This document shows, piece by piece, positions 44,014 to 52,863 of a DNA stretch of 64,000 nt. The first letter of the stretch is position 1, and the number at the start of each line of letters is the position of its first letter. The position numbers and the translations under genes are program-made. Below the pieces are notes generated by a model, which searched no databases, was not told the origin of the DNA, and worked only from the letters and a program-made list of their open reading frames with translations. Location of the stretch: assembly GCF_007752345.1 (NCBI RefSeq), contig NZ_CP036299.1, positions 1,627,001 through 1,691,000 of the forward strand. Reading direction: 5' to 3'. The stretch is from Planctopirus ephydatiae. Lineage in GTDB: Bacteria > Planctomycetota > Planctomycetia > Planctomycetales > Planctomycetaceae.

Positions 44014-44494
<481 letters not shown>

Positions 44495-44980
44495 ATGCCT
44501 GTAGAACTTAAAAACTTGAAATGCGTTAAGCAGACGATGGACTTTCCGAATCGTCCGCTCGCGGAACTTGAACTACTCGACCATGTTCACGGCTGCATTA
44601 TCTTGCAACCTGAAGGCGGTACGCCCTTCCATAACTTCGGATATTGGGATGCAAATGACGCGTGTCTTGGGCAATGGCTGGGGGTATTCACGGAAATCCA
44701 GCGATTGATCGACAAAGGCGGTAGCTTCACCTATGAATTCCAGTATCGAGATCAAGGTGATCCAAAACTTGAATTCGTATTCTCGGATGATTCAGTCCGA
44801 ATAGTTACGACATGCTATACCGATGACAGTTGGACGGAGGTCGAAGAATCCTGGGAACAGTCAACAACACGGTTGGAATTTGCAACTCTGGTTCGTGATG
44901 CTTTATTGCTGATTGAGCGGACAATACTTGAGGCAAGCCCCGCAAACGGTGCTGCCTGGATCCAGCGCAATCGCAGCTGA
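44495..44980 (+). CDS. Small acidic cytoplasmic protein of unknown function (island cassette gene)
   Basis: I start this 161-residue protein at the ATG at 44495. A TTG at 44444 would add 17 residues that look like repeat-derived leader. It has no signal peptide or membrane segment. Aromatic and acidic residues are abundant: FHNFGYWDANDACLGQWLG, then YEFQYRDQGDPKLEFVFSDD. The C-terminal half is predicted by eye to be a beta-strand pair followed by a long helix (EFATLVRDALLLIERTILEA). Size, acidity and setting resemble the immunity-type or other small proteins seen in cassette arrays, but I recognise no family. A degenerate attC-like left arm starts right at its stop codon (AACCATGTGGTGAACGG). 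Confidence 0.7.
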   Translation: MPVELKNLKCVKQTMDFPNRPLAELELLDHVHGCIILQPEGGTPFHNFGYWDANDACLGQWLGVFTEIQRLIDKGGSFTYEFQYRDQGDPKLEFVFSDDSVRIVTTCYTDDSWTEVEESWEQSTTRLEFATLVRDALLLIERTILEASPANGAAWIQRNRS

Positions 44981-44999
44981 TAACCATGTGGTGAACGGA

Positions 45000-45315
45000 A
45001 GCCCCGGGTGGCCATGGTTGAAATTCTGATTCCTACCGGGGTGTTGAAGCAGAAAGAGGTATGATTTCCTCTCAGTGGCAATTCTGATTCAGGCTGACTT
45101 TATGCGAGGAACAGGCCGCTCTCTAAGTTTCAAATTGCGATTGTCAGGATTGCGTCATAGCATAGATATTAAGAGCGGTGGAGCAAGGGAATCCGGTCAG
45201 CGCTCCGTTGCAACTCGTATTGCAGTGTGACAAATGAATTTCGACAAATCCATACCACACCCCCCGAAGTGCGGTGAAATTCTACCGCACTTCGGCGGTC
45301 GAATACCTGTTCGGC
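45000..45315 (+). repeat. Island repeat, copy A (about 300 bp)
   Basis: This shares about three quarters of its bases (by eye) with 47338-47620, with runs such as TTGAAATTC, ACCGGGGTG, GTGAAGCAGAAAGA / GTTGAAGCAGAAAGA, GGCAATTCTGATTCAGG and AATTTCGACAAATC in the same order. It lies directly upstream of a cassette gene and is non-coding. Confidence 0.75.
45264..45295 (+). promoter_or_regulatory. Perfect 12-bp inverted repeat upstream of the island membrane protein
   Basis: CCGAAGTGCGGT (45264-45275) and ACCGCACTTCGG (45284-45295) are exact complements around an 8-base loop. The structure lies 34 bases before the ATG at 45330 and is absent from the otherwise similar repeat copy B. It could be a cis-regulatory hairpin in the mRNA or a protein-binding site. 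Confidence 0.6.
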
Positions 45316-45329
45316 AAATAGGTCTGCTC

Positions 45330-45821
45330 ATGAAGCTTATTGGCCAGTTTGCACCATCTACGCGATCGGAGGTGATGCTCGGCTGGATTGGGCTAGCTGT
45401 AGTCGGTGTTTTTTTGCTTGCATGGGTCGCAATTGCGATCGGCTGTATCATGGTTGGGATCGGTACCATCTTTCGCGGCGAACGTGCATTGATCGTGTGC
45501 TTTCCGGCGGGACTTGCTGTGGTTTTGCTACCCGCTTTGCTTTTCTACCTCGATCGCCGCTGGTATCCGCGGATTTCACAATTCGTGCTCGACGACAGCA
45601 TGCTCACCTACACTCTTGCTCGTGAATCGGTTGCGACGTCGCGAATAATCGATGACGTTCGTTGGGTCGAACACAGGATGCATCGTGGATATACTCGCGG
45701 TTACTTGGTAAAATTCAGCGACGGGAGTGGTATCTTCGTCTGTCGGTCCCTAAGCAACTCCCATGAACTCGCAATCGCACTGAGAAATGTAGTGAAACAT
45801 AGCTCGACGTCGCTCGCATGA
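45330..45821 (+). CDS. Two-TM membrane protein with PH-like tail (island cassette gene)
   Basis: The start is placed at ATG 45330 because the 32 upstream codons in frame are the island repeat and its hairpin. The 163-residue protein has two hydrophobic helices: GWIGLAVVGVFLLAWVAIAIGCIMVGIG (from about residue 18) and LIVCFPAGLAVVLLPALLFYL (about 53-73). A soluble C-terminal domain follows, with strands such as QFVLDDSMLTYTL and GYLVKFSDGSGIFVC and a final helix, a pattern typical of bacterial PH-like domains. It probably sits in the inner membrane. A well-formed attC-like site follows its stop codon by about 10 bases. The function is unknown. Confidence 0.75.
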   Translation: MKLIGQFAPSTRSEVMLGWIGLAVVGVFLLAWVAIAIGCIMVGIGTIFRGERALIVCFPAGLAVVLLPALLFYLDRRWYPRISQFVLDDSMLTYTLARESVATSRIIDDVRWVEHRMHRGYTRGYLVKFSDGSGIFVCRSLSNSHELAIALRNVVKHSSTSLA

Positions 45822-45830
45822 GTCAGATCG

Positions 45831-45922
45831 AGCCGAACCAAGGCGGTGAACCGGAGCACGCGATCCGGCGTCTTTGAAGTGAAATCCGTACTGGCGCGTG
45901 CCCGGTCACGGCGGCCGTTCGT
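45831..45922 (+). other. Integron attC-like recombination site (best example)
   Basis: The 92-base sequence folds as an imperfect hairpin. CGAAC (45834-45838) pairs with GTTCG (45917-45921). GTGA (45846-45849) pairs with TCAC, CCGG (45851-45854) pairs with CCGG (45902-45905), and GCACGCG (45856-45862) pairs with CGCGTGC (45895-45901). A50 and A55 are left unpaired on one arm, as the extrahelical bases of attC sites are. It lies between the stop of one gene and the start of the next, in the orientation expected of a gene cassette. Confidence 0.75.
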
Positions 45923-45954
45923 AAAAAGAAGACTCCGTTCAATCGAATACAAGT

Positions 45955-47112
45955 ATGACCATTAGAGCAGCATTCGTCCAAGTCTTAGTCCTTGTCGCGG
46001 TAGGCAACTTATGGGCAGATCATCCCCGCGGTGAAGGAGAGGTCTCCAGAGCAAATCAGTTCTTTGACGATGGAGCATTTCGCAAGCTACAGACAGATCA
46101 AGCGAGAGCGCTTCATGCGAACGGGAGCTTGGTTAAAGCGAGCGATCTCGCCAAGCAGCTTGAGCGGAAGACTGTCGGTCTAGACTTGCCCGAAGCGGCA
46201 ACCGCCGTCTCCCCGATGTCGCCTAGGGAACTTTACCAGAAGTGTCGCCAGAGCGTATTCAGCCTTGCCGAAGTGAGGGACTGCGAGGGGTGTGGCGAGA
46301 TCCATGTTACACCCTATGGGACAGGGTTCGCCATCACGGCTGATGGAGTGTTGCTCACCAACCATCATCTGATTAAGGCTTTGGAATCCTCATCTCGATT
46401 GGTCGCATCGACTGCGGATGGAAAGACATATCCCGTTGTTGAAGTGCTCGCCTCAAGCGAGAAGGACGATGTAGCTGCGATCCGAATTGACGGTTCAGGT
46501 TTCGAACCGCTCCAGTTGAGCGTGGATAACTTCGTCGGAACCCGGGTCTCGGTGATCAACCACCCTCGCGGGCATTTGTATTCATTGAGCGAGGGCATCG
46601 TAACTCGCCTCTTCACACAGTATTCGCAACGAACTATGCTCATTTCCGGGGAGTATGCGGTCGGTTCCAGCGGCGCTCCGGTTTTGGACTCCTCAGGAAA
46701 AGTGCTAGGAATGGTCGCTGCCACAAGCTCCCTGAACGACCAGATGATCTTGCGGGTGTGCATCCCAACTCAGTCGTTGCTTGAAATCCTCACCCAATCT
46801 GAACCTGGAGCTGCCCAGGAAATGCAGGATCCACTTGCGACAGAGCGTGCTTGCTTGAAGGCCACCTTCGCAGCGTTTCAGCAACTGCTACAGCTACATC
46901 AGCAAGGGAGGATTTCATCGGAAGAGATGGACGAAAGATTCGCTACATTGCATTCCATCATGATGCACGCGATCGAGCGGTGTCCCGACGACCCTGTCGC
47001 TAAGCAGTATTCCAAGGTCGCCGAGTTCATGAGGAAGCAGCAGAGAACCCAATCCGGCGAACAAGACGCGGCTGACCAACTGCCTGCCCGCCGTGACTCA
47101 AACCCTGAATGA
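45955..47112 (+). CDS. Secreted trypsin-like serine protease (island cassette gene)
   Basis: This 385-residue protein has a signal peptide (AAFVQVLVLVAVGNLWA, cleavage near residue 21) and a helical region rich in Lys, Ala and Asp. The serine-protease domain spans about residues 93-285. The catalytic triad is complete: His138 in LLTNHHLI, Asp172 in KDDVAAIRI and Ser239 in GSSGAPVLD. It is of the HtrA/trypsin-like S1 class but lacks a PDZ domain. The C-terminal 100 residues are helical and end in a polar tail. CEGCGE (about 110-115) before the domain could bind a metal. It starts 33 bases after an attC-like site. A secreted protease is an unusual cargo among small cassette genes. Confidence 0.9.
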   Translation: MTIRAAFVQVLVLVAVGNLWADHPRGEGEVSRANQFFDDGAFRKLQTDQARALHANGSLVKASDLAKQLERKTVGLDLPEAATAVSPMSPRELYQKCRQSVFSLAEVRDCEGCGEIHVTPYGTGFAITADGVLLTNHHLIKALESSSRLVASTADGKTYPVVEVLASSEKDDVAAIRIDGSGFEPLQLSVDNFVGTRVSVINHPRGHLYSLSEGIVTRLFTQYSQRTMLISGEYAVGSSGAPVLDSSGKVLGMVAATSSLNDQMILRVCIPTQSLLEILTQSEPGAAQEMQDPLATERACLKATFAAFQQLLQLHQQGRISSEEMDERFATLHSIMMHAIERCPDDPVAKQYSKVAEFMRKQQRTQSGEQDAADQLPARRDSNPE

Positions 47113-47210
47113 ATTCTTTAACACTAACACTGAAATCGAAGCGAGCTCTCGGCAGGCAGTGACAGCGCTTGGACGTTCGCCAAACCTCGATAGCATTAAT
47201 CGCCCTGCTT

Positions 47211-47314
47211 CTAACGCATCCTGACAGCATACTTCCATGCCATCAGCCCCACAGCGCAACTGTAATCGCATGAGCGAAGCTTGGACTGATGGACCATGTA
47301 GACTGATAGCGTTG
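47211..47314 (+). other. Candidate attC-like site (weaker)
   Basis: CTAACGCATC (47211-47220) can pair with GATAGCGTTG (47305-47314) through a one-base bulge. Inside, CATGCCATCAG (from 47237) pairs with CTGATGGACCATG (47286-47298) through a two-base bulge. The outer AAC and GTT match attC core ends. The match to the consensus is less regular than at 45831-45922. Confidence 0.45.
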
Positions 47315-47337
47315 CCCTTCGATTGCCCTTCTGTTAA

Positions 47338-47620
47338 GCCCGCAGGGTGGCCCCGGTTGAAATTCGGATTTCTACCGGGGTGGTGAAGCAGAAAGAAATC
47401 TGATTTCGTTCATTGGCAATTCTGATTCAGGCGGGTTGGCGAGGAACGGTGTGGCGCACTGAGTTTCAGATTGCGATTATTAAGTGCGCGGCATAACATA
47501 AATGCCTACACCGATGTAGCAAGTGAATTCGGTCAACGCTCCGTAGCAACATGTTTCGCAGTTTGACAACTCAATTTCGACAAATCTCCCACCTCGGCGG
47601 TAGAATACATATTCGCCTAT
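47338..47620 (+). repeat. Island repeat, copy B
   Basis: This is the counterpart of copy A, collinear from the GGGTGGCC start to the GAATACAT end but lacking the 12-bp hairpin. Within it, CCCCGGT and ACCGGGG (about 47354-47382) form a 7-bp stem that is broken in copy A. It ends immediately before the next cassette gene. Confidence 0.75.
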
Positions 47621-47629
47621 CCAAGAATC

Positions 47630-48007
47630 ATGACGAAACTCGCACAGGCACTACCAGATTTCACGGAAGAACTTTCGCAGGGTATCGCTTCACTGGGTTA
47701 CAAGAATCTCGCATCATCTGTGTATGCGATTGAAGTTGTCGAGCGATGCAAATGCGATGAACCCGGTTGTGTAACGTTTTTTTCTGTTGCTAAGCTTTCC
47801 GCTCCACGTCCGGAAACCTGCAAACGCGTTGTCGCTCCTGCCAGGGGCGTCACTTGCATACAATACTTTGGGCGACAAATCAAATGGGTTGAGGTACTCG
47901 GTCGCCCGGAGGATCGTCAGAAACTCGACAAACATGAATCACAACTGGCTGGAATCGATCCGGCGAACCAAGCGTTGAGTACGGAGCCGCGGATCGGGCG
48001 GCTTTGA
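47630..48007 (+). CDS. Small Cys-containing protein of unknown function (island cassette gene)
   Basis: This 125-residue cytoplasmic protein starts at the ATG at 47630, directly after repeat copy B. The N-terminal half is helical. The middle contains CKCDEPGCVTFFSV, a three-Cys group that may bind zinc, and GVTCIQYFGRQIKWVEVLGR, a beta hairpin. The last 14 residues, ANQALSTEPRIGRL, are encoded by the left arm of the attC-like site, so the stop codon lies inside the recombination site. That is a feature I associate with cassette genes. I recognise no family. Small size and setting suggest an immunity-type or regulatory protein, without direct evidence. Confidence 0.7.
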   Translation: MTKLAQALPDFTEELSQGIASLGYKNLASSVYAIEVVERCKCDEPGCVTFFSVAKLSAPRPETCKRVVAPARGVTCIQYFGRQIKWVEVLGRPEDRQKLDKHESQLAGIDPANQALSTEPRIGRL

Positions 48008-48055
48008 AATGGCAGCTTTATTTGCCGCAAACCGATGAAACCCTTCGTTAGGAGC
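47961..48055 (+). other. attC-like site overlapping the 3' end of the preceding gene
   Basis: AACCAAG (47966-47972) pairs with CTTCGTT (48043-48049) with one mismatch, CGG (47982-47984) pairs with CCG (48032-48034), and GCGG (47989-47992) pairs with CCGC (48025-48028). The 3' box GTTAGGA agrees with GTTRRRY at six of seven positions and contains AGGAG, which may serve as the ribosome site of the next gene 12 bases on. The left arm is recognisably the same family as that at 45831 (CGAACCAAGCG against CGAACCAAGGCG). Confidence 0.65.
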
Positions 48056-48066
48056 TTGGAACTGCC

Positions 48067-48369
48067 ATGAGCGAACTCGAAGATCAACTTCGTGAGATTT
48101 GGGAGTACATTCCTGATGAGAATGACCTCTCGTGGATTGATCGTGTGGCGAGTCAGCCGGCAGACACCGGTCCACTTGGTGACTTCGGCACAATCACTCG
48201 ACGGATGCTAGCGGCGGGTGTATCCAAACTGGATATCGCTCGTTTTGCGAAGATCAACGCATATGAAGCGGCTTTTGGAGCACTTTTCGTTGCTGGCAAT
48301 GGCCTCCACGAATTACTTCTATCGGCCGATCCAACAGGACGCGAAATGAGGCCTCCCACTGGCACGTAA
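48067..48369 (+). CDS. Small protein of unknown function (island cassette gene)
   Basis: This 100-residue protein starts 12 bases after the attC-like site, using AGGAG inside that site as its ribosome-binding sequence. It is acidic at the N-terminus (SELEDQLREIWEYIPDENDL) and helical through most of its length. GVSKLDIARFAKINAYEAAFGALF looks like a helix-turn-helix-like or simple helical hairpin segment. No signal peptide or catalytic residues were seen. Many small proteins in cassette arrays are unrecognised, and this fits that pattern. The truncated repeat copy C follows its stop codon. Confidence 0.7.
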   Translation: MSELEDQLREIWEYIPDENDLSWIDRVASQPADTGPLGDFGTITRRMLAAGVSKLDIARFAKINAYEAAFGALFVAGNGLHELLLSADPTGREMRPPTGT

Positions 48370-48370
48370 C

Positions 48371-48450
48371 CAGTTGCGGGGTGGTAAATCCACAAGAGGT
48401 ATGACTCCAAGCCTGCCGCAATTGTGGATCGAGCTGACTTCACGCGCACA
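48371..48450 (+). repeat. Island repeat, truncated copy C
   Basis: GCGGGGTGGTAAATCCACAA, then AAGAGGTATGA, GCAATTGTGGAT and GCTGACTTCACGCG, align in order with the first part of copy A (CCGGGGTGTTGAAGCAG, AAGAGGTATGA, GCAATTCTGATT, GCTGACTTTATGCG). It marks the right end of the island, next to the convergent peptidase gene. Confidence 0.6.
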
Positions 48451-48581: not shown

Positions 48582-51500
48582 TTACTTTTTGCTGGCGAGC
48601 CAGTCGTCAACGACGAGTTCCAGTTCTGCCAGTGGGATGGCTCCGTTCTTTAAAATGACATCGTGGAATTCGCGGAGGTCGAGTTTCTCCCCTAGCTGAG
48701 CCTTGGCCTTCTTGCGAAGTTCCTTGATCTTCAGTTCGCCAATCTTGTAAGCCAGAGCCTGGCCGGGCCACGAAATGTAACGATCCACCTCGTTCACAAT
48801 ATCGAGTTCTGTCTTGGCCGAGTTATCCCGGAAGAACTGGATGGCCTGTTCCCTAGTCCAGCCTTTCGAGTGAATGCCCGTATCGACCACGAGACGGATC
48901 GCACGCCACATCTCATACGTGAGTTGCCCGAATTTGGCATAAGGGTCGTCGTAGACACCTAACTCTTCGCCAAGACTTTCGCTATAGAGTGCCCAGCCTT
49001 CGACGAAAGCCGTAAATCCAGCAAAGCGGCGGAAGTTGGGGACGCCTTCGAGTTCGGTTGATAACGCAATCTGCAGGTGATGCCCAGGAACGGATTCGTG
49101 TAGCGATAGTGCAGGAATCTCGTACTTAGGTCGCATTTGGGGCTGATAGAGATTCACAAAGAACATGCCGGCACGAGAGCCATCGGCCGATGGTGGGTAG
49201 TAATAGGCAGCCGTGGTATCTGGCGCCATATTGGCGGGAATCGCCTTCACTCCATAGGGAATTCGCGGCAACGTCTTAAAGAGTTTCGTCAGTTGCGGAT
49301 CCACCCGCTTACAAAAGGCTTCGTATTCGGTGAGAAGCTCTTTTTCATTCTGGAAATAGAACTTGGGATCGGTGCGTAACGATTCGAAGAAAGCCTTCAG
49401 ATCACCCTGAAAATGAACCTGCTCGCGGATCTTTTCCATTTCGGCACGAATGCGCGCGACTTCATTCAGGCCTATCTGATGAACTTCATCAGGGGTCATT
49501 TCGAGAGTCGTAAATTCACGGACTCGAAATTTATAGATCTCGTCGCCGCCAGGAAGATTAGAGACACCAGCTCCTACATAGCAGGCCGGTAGATACTTGT
49601 TCGTAAAGAAATCGAGGAATTTCTGATAGGCAGGGACAATCTTGGTACGAATCGCTTCCTGAGCGGCCTGCTGGAGCTCTTCCCGCTGCGGAGCGAGATC
49701 TTGAGGAATGCTGGTAAAGGGCTTATAGAAGAGGCTTTGTGTCGGATCTTTGACAATTTGTCGCTCAATCTGCTTGACGACCCGTTGCATGGTGATCTTC
49801 GGTTGCAGGCGGCCTGCGCGAATCCCTTCTTCCATCAAGGCAATTGTCTGATCCATATAGACAGGAAAACTGTTGAGGCGCGCAATCCAGTTCTGATAGC
49901 TGGCAAGATCGCCAAACTGAATCGAGTCAGTGATGGAGTTTTCATCCTGGATCCCTTCCCGCTGAGTGAGAGGGACGAGGTACCATCTGGTTTTTGTTTC
50001 TTCGATGTTCATCGCGAGTTGGCGGGCATAGAGCCTGGCGTTGAACTGAGCTTTGGCCGAGAGTGGCTTGCCGCGAATCTGTTCCAGCTTTTCGGCAGAG
50101 ATCTTCATCTGCTCGTGACGCTGCTTGATGGCAGGAAGCGAGATGTCTGGCCAGAGGGCATCGTAGCGGGTATCACCCAGATAAGAGGCAAACGTGGGCG
50201 AATTCTTGAGTGTCTGTTCCCACTCCTGATCGAAGAAGGCTTCAAGCTCGGCATCGGCGACAGTTTTCGAGCAGACCGGCAATTCTTGTGACGTTGATCC
50301 ACCGGAATGTCCTGCACCTTGTGTGTATTTCAGCAGAAAGGCGAGTTCGATCGCGAGATCTTCGATGGTCTTGCTGACAGGCCGGGCACCGGTGTGTCCC
50401 AACGCATCATCGTACATCAGGAAGATCGGTCGCTTGAGCGCGGGGACGGCTTGCAGTCGCGCAACCATCTTGCGGGCATGGTTAGGATCAACTCGCGTAT
50501 CCGCATCTCCCGTAATGAACATGGCAGCCGGGTAGTTCACATTCGGGTCGATGTGGTGGTAGGGCGAATACGACTTGAGAATGGGATACATTTCGGGGTC
50601 TTCGCTGCTGCCGTACTCGGGGACCCAGAAACGAGCGACGAGGAACTGGTGATAGCGGAGCATATCGAGCAGCGGGTAGGAACAGACGACCGCTGCAAAG
50701 AGTTCGGGTCGCTGGGTCATGGCTGTGCCCACGAGGAGACCACCGTTACTGCCACCATTAATGGCTAGATGGGCGGGCGATGTGTACTTGTTGGCAATCA
50801 GGTATTCGGCAGCGGCGTAGAAATCATCGAAGACGTTCTGCTTCTTTTTGAGATAGCCGGCCGTGTGCCAGTCTTCGCCAAACTCGCCGCCACCCCTGAG
50901 ATTAGCGACGGCATAGACACCGCCCAGTTCCATCCAGAGGGCGGCTTTGGTCGAGAAGCCAGGTGTGAGATTGACGGCAAAACCTCCATAGCCATAGAGC
51001 AAAGTGGGGTTAGTCCCATTGAGTTCGAGGCCTTTGCGATGAGCAATGAACATGGGGATGCGGGTGCCGTCCTTGGAGGGGAACCACACCTGCCGGACGG
51101 TGAACTTTTCGCTATCGAAGGGGATCTCGGATTGATGCCAGACCGTTGTTTTCTGAGTGGGAATATCAAACTTAAAGATTGTCCCCGGAACAATATAGCT
51201 GCTGAAACTGTAGTAGAGTTCGGATTGATCCCACGCCCCTGAGGCGCCTGAGATCGATCCCAATGTCGGAGGATCGATAGAGAAAAGTTCTTTCCCGGCG
51301 AGGTCGTAGGCTTTGAGTTCCGAAACGACGTTTCGCAACCAGCGGATAAAGAGCTTGCCGCCAACGAGTGAGATCCCTTCGAGTGATGCTTCCGACTGAG
51401 GGACGATAACGGGGCATTGATCGAGCACAGGCTGGCGGAGATCCGCGAGAAGAAGTTGGCCGCGGGGTGCTTTCCAGGTGGTGCGGACAATGGCACGATG

Positions 51501-52433
51501 ATCAATCGCATCGACTTCAAACTCAGCCTCTAACCCGACAGCAAAGGGAAGGATCGGCTCGTTGGGCTTGGCGAGCGACTGAATGTAGACATCGTTCTGC
51601 GAAGAGGCCCCGAGATAAACATGGTATATGAGCCACAGGTTATCTTCCGAGAGGCGCACACCGAGAATCTTCTCGGGGCCGAACTTCTCGCCAAATAGAA
51701 GCGTTTCCTTTCCAGTAGCGAGGTCGCGGACGTAAGCCCGCGGGCCGATCTTCTGATCGTGACGTGATAGATACACGCGCTGGCCATCCTGCGTGAACGA
51801 CAGGCTGGAATAGCGACCTTTCGGGAACTCGGTCTTTGCAAACGATTTGGTGGTGACATAGAACAGGCGAGGGGTCACTTCGTCCTCGCCGCCTGTGCGA
51901 ACTCCACAGATAAGCAGATTACCGTCGTGAGTAACGTCCATCAGATTCACTGTCGTTTTTCCATCCGATGAGAGCTTCTGGGGGTCAATCAGAAGTTCAT
52001 CGGGAGCATTCGCTGCGGGCCGATACCAGATGCTGGGGACATCGGCAGAGGCGGTACGTTTCGAGAAGAAGGCGCGCCCTCCTCGAACAACCGGCATGCC
52101 GACACTGTCCACCTTGAGAAGCTCGGCTAACCTCGCCTTGAGTTCAGGAATCCGTGGCCAGGTACTGGCGGAACTCTTGAGGTACTGAGCCTGCTCGCTG
52201 AGCCATTCCCGAGTGGCGGGAGCTTTCTGGTCTTCGAGCCAGCGATATGGATCGACGATCGTTTCGCCATGGAAGACTTCGGGAATGTTATCCGTTTTTG
52301 CCACGGGCGGTTTCAACATGATCTCTTCAGCAGCAGCAATCGACATGAATTGCATTTCCGAAAGACAGAGAATGGCCAGAGAAAGAAATGCGAGGGTATG
52401 GCATTTTGTTTCTCGTCGAGAGGCTGTCGGCAT
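48582..52433 (-). CDS. Fusion of prolyl oligopeptidase (S9A) and DUF885 metallopeptidase-like protein
   Basis: I start this 1283-residue protein at the ATG at 52431-52433, which gives a signal peptide (CHTLAFLSLAILCLSEMQF). The frame continues upstream to 52559. The first 690 residues are a complete prolyl oligopeptidase: DPYRWLED at the N-terminus, a beta-propeller, then Ser562 in GGSNGG, Asp645 in GDADTRVD and His680 in LGHTGAR. These enzymes cleave short peptides after proline. After a Gly/Ser-rich linker (QGAGHSGGSTSQ) comes a second domain of about 550 residues matching DUF885, with the zinc-site motif HESVPGHH at 1112-1119. Two peptidases are normally separate proteins; here one exported chain carries both, probably for peptide catabolism in the periplasm. 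Confidence 0.9.
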   Translation of the reverse strand: MPTASRRETKCHTLAFLSLAILCLSEMQFMSIAAAEEIMLKPPVAKTDNIPEVFHGETIVDPYRWLEDQKAPATREWLSEQAQYLKSSASTWPRIPELKARLAELLKVDSVGMPVVRGGRAFFSKRTASADVPSIWYRPAANAPDELLIDPQKLSSDGKTTVNLMDVTHDGNLLICGVRTGGEDEVTPRLFYVTTKSFAKTEFPKGRYSSLSFTQDGQRVYLSRHDQKIGPRAYVRDLATGKETLLFGEKFGPEKILGVRLSEDNLWLIYHVYLGASSQNDVYIQSLAKPNEPILPFAVGLEAEFEVDAIDHRAIVRTTWKAPRGQLLLADLRQPVLDQCPVIVPQSEASLEGISLVGGKLFIRWLRNVVSELKAYDLAGKELFSIDPPTLGSISGASGAWDQSELYYSFSSYIVPGTIFKFDIPTQKTTVWHQSEIPFDSEKFTVRQVWFPSKDGTRIPMFIAHRKGLELNGTNPTLLYGYGGFAVNLTPGFSTKAALWMELGGVYAVANLRGGGEFGEDWHTAGYLKKKQNVFDDFYAAAEYLIANKYTSPAHLAINGGSNGGLLVGTAMTQRPELFAAVVCSYPLLDMLRYHQFLVARFWVPEYGSSEDPEMYPILKSYSPYHHIDPNVNYPAAMFITGDADTRVDPNHARKMVARLQAVPALKRPIFLMYDDALGHTGARPVSKTIEDLAIELAFLLKYTQGAGHSGGSTSQELPVCSKTVADAELEAFFDQEWEQTLKNSPTFASYLGDTRYDALWPDISLPAIKQRHEQMKISAEKLEQIRGKPLSAKAQFNARLYARQLAMNIEETKTRWYLVPLTQREGIQDENSITDSIQFGDLASYQNWIARLNSFPVYMDQTIALMEEGIRAGRLQPKITMQRVVKQIERQIVKDPTQSLFYKPFTSIPQDLAPQREELQQAAQEAIRTKIVPAYQKFLDFFTNKYLPACYVGAGVSNLPGGDEIYKFRVREFTTLEMTPDEVHQIGLNEVARIRAEMEKIREQVHFQGDLKAFFESLRTDPKFYFQNEKELLTEYEAFCKRVDPQLTKLFKTLPRIPYGVKAIPANMAPDTTAAYYYPPSADGSRAGMFFVNLYQPQMRPKYEIPALSLHESVPGHHLQIALSTELEGVPNFRRFAGFTAFVEGWALYSESLGEELGVYDDPYAKFGQLTYEMWRAIRLVVDTGIHSKGWTREQAIQFFRDNSAKTELDIVNEVDRYISWPGQALAYKIGELKIKELRKKAKAQLGEKLDLREFHDVILKNGAIPLAELELVVDDWLASKK

Positions 52434-52863
52434 AACGTGATTCCTGAGTTTGCGGGAGACCGATGCAGAGCGTCTGATGAACGCTGAACTCTCAGCATCA
52501 GGATCGTTGTGAGGAACAAAAAGAGTAACAGCTTGAGTCGAATTCTGCCTGAAAATCATCGGCTATCACAGCTTCCTCAGAAGTGATCTTCTTACGAAAG
52601 CCATTATATATGACGAGTATTTGGTACAAGGAGATGACGTTTTCCACAGTGGAAGATCATGACAGAATGGCGTTGCTCTGCAAAGTGAACCGGGCGGATG
52701 AGAGATGATTTTGCCACGGTTGATGCTGAAGAGGTCGTGATTTAGAAAGTGATGCAGAAGGGGCTCTCGCGAAGCCGCGAAGATCTCGAAGGGAATGGCA
52801 ATGTGATTGAGTGAGGCAACGAGATCCAATGAATCGATCTCAGAAAGTCAATAAACCAACTTC
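52434..52863. other. Intergenic region upstream of the peptidase fusion
   Basis: About 430 bases lie between the start of the peptidase gene and the end of the next minus-strand gene. They include a minus-strand reading frame without domain features that I reject as a gene. The promoter of the peptidase gene is expected here. Confidence 0.45.

Follow-up and report, generated by a model that had tools for sequence, protein, structure and literature searches.

In the current study, a 64,000-nucleotide stretch of the chromosome of Planctopirus ephydatiae (bases 1,627,001-1,691,000 of a 5.21-Mb genome that is complete in one contig; hereafter the window) was analysed, in which five small open reading frames (ORF1 to ORF5), all on the forward strand at 44495-48369, lie between a tRNA-Ser gene on the left and a conserved peptidase gene on the right. 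This locus is almost certainly an integron-type cassette array. We consider it quite probable that it represents a cluster of attC sites lacking integron integrases (CALIN) which was seeded on dispersed attI-like sites, these being copies of a repeat, here named P, that, as judged from its sequence, is probably an attI-like landing site. On balance, we favour the interpretation that P is a family-wide, dispersed, multi-copy and mobile attI-like element which would move as an ORF-less cassette and seed arrays at many chromosomal sites without linkage to an integrase, no integrase gene having been found in Planctopirus. The original prediction for this stretch had described the five same-strand ORFs correctly and its integron-type reading is upheld, whereas two weak look-alikes had been taken for attC sites and three P elements and two copies of a palindromic repeat (repeat A) had been overlooked.

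The evidence for attC sites comes from covariance models. A BLAST search with the hairpin at 45831 retrieved four similar hairpins from the same genome, and a first model, R1, was built from six sites; it is supported by the fact that its matches outside the genus adjoin integron-integrase (intI) genes in three relatives (G006, G007 and G009). As a precaution against circularity, a second model, R2, was derived from sites of other genera only, several of which adjoin intI, with a slight leak in that these training sites had been chosen with R1. Throughout the 64-kb window R2 produced only two matches at E ≤ 5, and these coincide with the hairpin at 45831-45922 and the GTTAGGA-bearing site at 47961-48055 that had been proposed originally. 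The sites, and one remnant, are as follows.

45831-45926, forward strand: attC site 1 (R1 90.5 bits; R2 64.0 bits, E 3.7e-18), R' crossover at G45917^T45918
47961-48056, forward strand: attC site 2 (R1 73.6 bits; R2 45.7 bits, E 3.9e-12), R' box GTTAGGA at 48047-48053
44981-45005, forward strand: attC left-arm remnant, AACCATGTGGTGAACGGAAGCCCC, directly adjoining repeat A and not a full attC

Site 1 possesses the R'' box (GCCGAAC), the R' box (GTTCGTA) and the predicted extrahelical adenine. Two further, weaker sites of the original prediction did not withstand this analysis: 47211-47314 gave no R2 match, even with filters off, and a shuffle z-score of folding energy of only -1.1 (for 47205-47325), while the supposed half-site at 44983-45010 proved to be the left-arm remnant abutting repeat A, where R2 with filters off scores 5.8 bits (44977-45026). 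Under the same settings a weak match of 14.6 bits was obtained at 47055-47184, overlapping the 3' end of ORF3. The z-scores of the two real attC sites were -1.6 and +0.4; because folding energies were unexceptional at every site, hairpin energy does not discriminate and was dropped as evidence, the attC assignments being based on the covariance model and not on hairpin stability. Genome-wide, R1 (E < 0.01) identified at least 22 full-length attC sites and several same-strand ORF-attC arrays. The sites are grouped in one array at 2.489-2.498 Mb and another at 3.477-3.487 Mb, with two more at 2.16 Mb, the two of the window and a solitary one; a similar number of sites was obtained with R1 in congener G001.

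The contents of the locus were compared with those of the congeners (G001 to G003, the genome under study being G000). G001 is 90.8% identical to the window until 44102, just beyond the tRNA-Ser gene, and similarity resumes at 48379 with 93.1% identity; between these points G001 matches consist solely of repeats and a 230-bp tRNA-flanking piece. The corresponding G001 interval of ~6 kb contains other ORFs, including one for a HEAT-repeat protein, and attC sites of its own. Since the flanks are 91-93% identical yet the genes between them are entirely different, the cassettes have evidently turned over. The contigs of G002 stop within the locus, and the ORFs there are different again. The original prediction had named two observations that would speak against it, a lack of attC matches at the intervals it singled out and conservation of all five genes in close relatives; neither was made, since both principal intervals are matched and the five genes are not conserved between the conserved flanks in G001.

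Comparison of arrays revealed P as a repeat of ~240 bp located 5' of array ORFs, always on the strand of the attC sites, with similarity stopping at ...CGCACTTCGGCGGTCGAATACCTGTT. Its 26-nt core (up to 3 mismatches) was detected in 12 of 59 genomes, representing nine genera, and a reversed control pattern gave zero matches. Across 41 distinct copies the information content amounts to ~1.7-1.8 bits per base as far as GTT, is weak over the next four bases (CGGC) and then falls to ~0.05. As the copies were gathered with a pattern ending in GTT, the strong signal over the final 26 bases stems in part from this choice; the part from -106 to -27 and the sharp drop past GTT are free of this bias, positions back to -106 holding 0.6-1.2 bits. 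A same-strand attC site follows 263-1122 nt downstream in 23 of the 28 P copies with enough downstream sequence, a count which leaves out one match of low score that falls on the reverse strand of the same palindrome. A profile hidden Markov model of P, built without the window copies, located three sites in the window, directly 5' of ORF1, ORF2 and ORF4.

44365-44472, forward strand: P0, degenerate attI-like element (E 1.2e-11) 5' of ORF1, ending in ACCTGAT and not in ACCTGTT
45182-45315, forward strand: P1, attI-like element (E 2e-34), core (45286-45311) without mismatch to the search consensus, crossover predicted at G45309^T45310
47518-47617, forward strand: P2, degenerate attI-like element (E 3.1e-9) 5' of ORF4, with an internal deletion and ending in CATATT

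P copies also contain an imperfect 16-bp inverted repeat, ACCGCCGAAGTGCGGT and ACCGCACTTCGGCGGT separated by 8 nt, at -52 to -13 before the crossover (45260-45299 in the window); as a conserved RNA, this hairpin had no Rfam match above the gathering threshold. Many copies carry a TTGACA-like box.

The layout of P resembles that of attI. Adjoining intI in three relatives are the arrangements GCCTAAC-CTTA-GTTCGGC, GTCTAAT-TCAA-GTTCGCC and GTCTAAT-AATA-GTTAGTC; P reads GTCGAAT-ACCT-GTT, followed by CGGC-like bases, with the same succession of L box, four nucleotides and GTT. A conserved sequence ending in G^TT with an inverted L-type box is present in the P family as a whole and in P1. Adjacency to intI, a further hallmark of attI, was not observed, P lying far from intI in G007 and G046. 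Different first cassettes at orthologous sites, in turn, were found at two P platforms shared by G000 and G001, whose upstream sequences are 94% identical over 1272 bp and ~92% identical over ~1.1 kb, respectively, and which have nothing in common downstream; at the first, the P-adjacent cassettes differ and the distal part is 95.6% identical. In Vibrio cholerae, new cassettes enter at attI (PMC8191803), and change proximal to P combined with distal conservation is what the entry of new cassettes at P would be expected to produce. The array at 2.49 Mb contains two copies of a 659-bp unit that lacks a convincing ORF, with identity at 602 of 659 positions. Each copy begins at an attC crossover position, the two attC sites concerned being otherwise different, and has P as its far end, as would be expected of a cassette terminated by an attI-like site. 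This one clean duplication and the multi-copy distribution suggest, with some reservation, that P units are themselves mobile.

No integron integrase over the cut-off of TIGR02249 (265 bits) was found in the complete 5.21-Mb genome, the best score being 80 bits; an intI gene with the IntI-specific domain, as a complete integron would have, was not found. A search for a hidden or decayed intI returned nothing at E ≤ 10 except Xer-like proteins. Across the four genus members TIGR02249 matched nothing at E ≤ 1e-30, two of the congeners being drafts in which absence is less certain, and integron integrases over the cut-off occur in 15 of the 59 relatives. Of the two possibilities left by the original prediction, the integrase-less cluster is borne out, with no integrase over the cut-off in the whole genome and no strong match in the congeners, whereas the distal part of a chromosomal integron is not. 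At least two attC sites recognised by a model, same-strand ORFs between them, no integrase nearby and contents that vary among relatives together characterise the locus as a CALIN.

We propose that the array comprises three short modules, each opening with P, namely P0-ORF1-(attC remnant), A-P1-ORF2-attC-ORF3 and A-P2-ORF4-attC-ORF5. Integration of circular cassettes with a folded attC, catalysed by an integron integrase, would take place at the G^TT ending P or at attC, and integration at the former would cause new genes to land beside P. Because none is encoded in this genome, the integrase would have been supplied in trans or since lost. P copies would move as ORF-less units ending in P rather than in attC, which would explain how one genome came to hold ~nine landing sites across several arrays. 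From these sequence features we infer that P is a substrate of IntI; it may also carry the cassette promoter, and cassette transfer may still be ongoing.

Several observations, in addition to the selection effect of the collecting pattern, weigh against this proposal. GTT is kept in P1 only, being absent from P0 and P2. Convincing covariation was not found in the P hairpin, nor a clear promoter pair in P1 of the window, and no standard promoter could be assigned within P. The L-4-GTT motif was not found in seven of ten intI loci, and nhmmer searches with P gave no significant match beside the intI genes examined; as the motif is absent from these seven loci and the long P is not homologous to intI-linked regions, the relation between P and attI is one of layout only. 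Finally, since the right arm of attC site 2 is partly decayed, ORF3 and ORF5 are without a confirmed attC and ORF1 is followed by a remnant only, the window array may be inactive.

Part of this evidence would also suit an ordinary CALIN, that is, the decayed rest of one chromosomal integron in which P is a conserved promoter or leader before the first genes and has no role in recombination. CALINs are common and are held to be degraded integrons (PMC9024848), and two of the three window P copies as well as attC site 2 are indeed degenerate. We nevertheless regard this explanation as unlikely, given that P conservation stops at GTT and is followed by an R-box-like tetranucleotide, that orthologous platforms have different first cassettes after P, that a P-ended unit has been duplicated with both ends at predicted crossovers, and that there are many P copies per genome. 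That cassettes and P units were instead swapped by homologous recombination between repeats (A, P or shared flanks), independently of an integron integrase, seems improbable: both A and P occur as direct repeats, the genome has no integrase gene, and A-bracketed genes without a detected attC, such as the one between lepA and a sulfatase gene, also vary by species, but independent platforms have their breakpoints at GTT, the 659-bp unit has as its boundary an attC crossover with unrelated flanks, and homologous exchange requires a second homology downstream, which is absent here.

The genome encodes five Phage_integrase-domain proteins, not all of them XerC/D-like, and the arrays have turned over although intI was not found in four genomes; another tyrosine recombinase of the genus (for example a 325-aa protein at 2.773 Mb of contig C1 of G000) might accordingly be thought to replace IntI on attC and P. 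This is very improbable, as the best score against the integron-integrase model is 80 bits, far from the cut-off, and, to our knowledge, attC recombination is carried out by IntI only. The notion that the sites are chance hairpins between unrelated genes, with no relation to integrons, can draw on the unremarkable thermodynamic z-scores of both sites; it is refuted by the E-values of the independent model (3.7e-18 and 3.9e-12) and by the attC arrays elsewhere in the genome.

The preferred reading, a CALIN seeded on dispersed attI-like sites, shares with the CALINs of IntegronFinder (PMC9024848) the presence of at least two attC sites, the same-strand ORF-attC units and the lack of intI within reach, and differs from them in that arrays begin at, and are broken by, a conserved multi-copy attI-like element, and in that none of the four genus members examined yielded an integron integrase. 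With the attI of complete integrons P has in common the conserved end at G^TT, the inverted L-like box 4 nt upstream, the adjacent first cassette and the new genes adjoining it; unlike attI, P is multi-copy and unlinked to intI even where the genome has one, and its recombination is putative. Class 1 and 2 integrons include cassettes ending in attI (PMC12901181), and in these Delta-attI-type cassettes the 3' recombination site is likewise attI-derived and not attC; they mostly involve short attI fragments behind resistance genes, whereas P is a long conserved element which ends an ORF-less unit and has spread family-wide. A likeness also exists to attG, described as cassette entry points outside the intI-linked attI (Loot et al. 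2024, in the account given by PMC12444791), although attG sites, according to that account, are dispersed with a loose consensus and P is a long conserved repeat. Chromosomal attC sites of planctomycetes were already known, with a taxon-specific model available (PMC8352920). The open-access full-text literature yielded no account of a P-like element; subscription journals may hold one.

The textbook integron has a single intI, a single attI and a single array. Should P be a mobile attI, many landing sites could coexist in one genome and be used by an integrase coming from outside, which would explain how integrase-less arrays keep changing. Such platforms could then be found by a simple sequence handle, and whether CALINs still work or are dead remnants could be tested directly.

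The cargo and the flanking genes of the locus are listed below.

44014-44101, forward strand: tRNA-Ser(cga), conserved left flank, synteny with G001 intact as far as 44102
44495-44980, forward strand: ORF1, 161-aa cassette gene with zero family matches
45330-45821, forward strand: ORF2, 163 aa with hydrophobic segments, first cassette gene past P1
45955-47112, forward strand: ORF3, 385-aa cassette gene for a trypsin-like serine protease (Trypsin_2, PF13365, E 2.9e-22) with a signal-peptide-like start
47630-48007, forward strand: ORF4, 125-aa cassette gene whose 3' end overlaps attC site 2
48067-48369, forward strand: ORF5, 100-aa cassette gene
48582-52559, reverse strand: conserved right flank gene, 1325 aa, prolyl oligopeptidase (S9) fused to a DUF885 domain

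The tRNA-Ser gene had been placed beside the array by the original prediction as well. For ORF2 the start at ATG 45330 is favoured because a longer ORF would cross P1. ORF1, ORF2 and ORF4 had zero matches in Pfam, NCBIfam, PADLOC and PHROGs, and a role of the cargo as known defence or toxin genes was rejected, a recognisable domain being present in ORF3 only. The ORF3 protein also matches the protease portion of PADLOC RT-Protease_XI (E 8e-14) and phrog_11383 (E 2e-14), the reverse transcriptase part being absent. Relatives of ORF5 (30-41% identity) occur in Acidimicrobiales and in what we take, from the genus names, to be Rhodobacterales. One cassette protein of G001 (L049 12067-12633) shows a sub-threshold match (E 0.0037) to the Imm42 immunity protein family. 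The tRNA-Ser gene of G001 is followed, precisely from its 3' end, by an inserted segment of 1.1 kb (L049 6612-7712) that includes a 203-aa ORF and has ~10 bp of the tRNA end repeated at its far side, in the manner of a tiny tRNA-targeting element. The S9-DUF885 fusion is present in all four genus members; in other genera its halves match separate proteins.

Repeat A, GGTGGCCCCGGTTGAAATTCTGATTTCTACCGGGGTGG, is a genus-specific dispersed palindrome with 14-20 occurrences in each of four congeners and none in 26 other genomes. It is represented in and beside the locus as follows.

45007-45044, forward strand: repeat A copy 1, genus-specific palindromic repeat
47346-47383, forward strand: repeat A copy 2
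48377-48404, forward strand: right-hand repeat A remnant; from 48379 onwards the order again agrees with G001

In several arrays A alternates with attC in the same orientation. It was rejected as an attC-like site, having no support from the attC model and occurring away from arrays as well. Direct-orientation A repeats also bracket single small genes, without a detected attC, between core genes (between lepA and a sulfatase gene, and adjoining lpxB; loci L150 2547-3299, L142 2197-3607, L166 and L167). The gene so bracketed between lepA and the sulfatase gene differs in the congeners, and one A copy remains. The genome contains three genes for Y1 (REP-type) transposases (C1:4338491, 192546 and 1371746), which would in principle be able to move repeat A.

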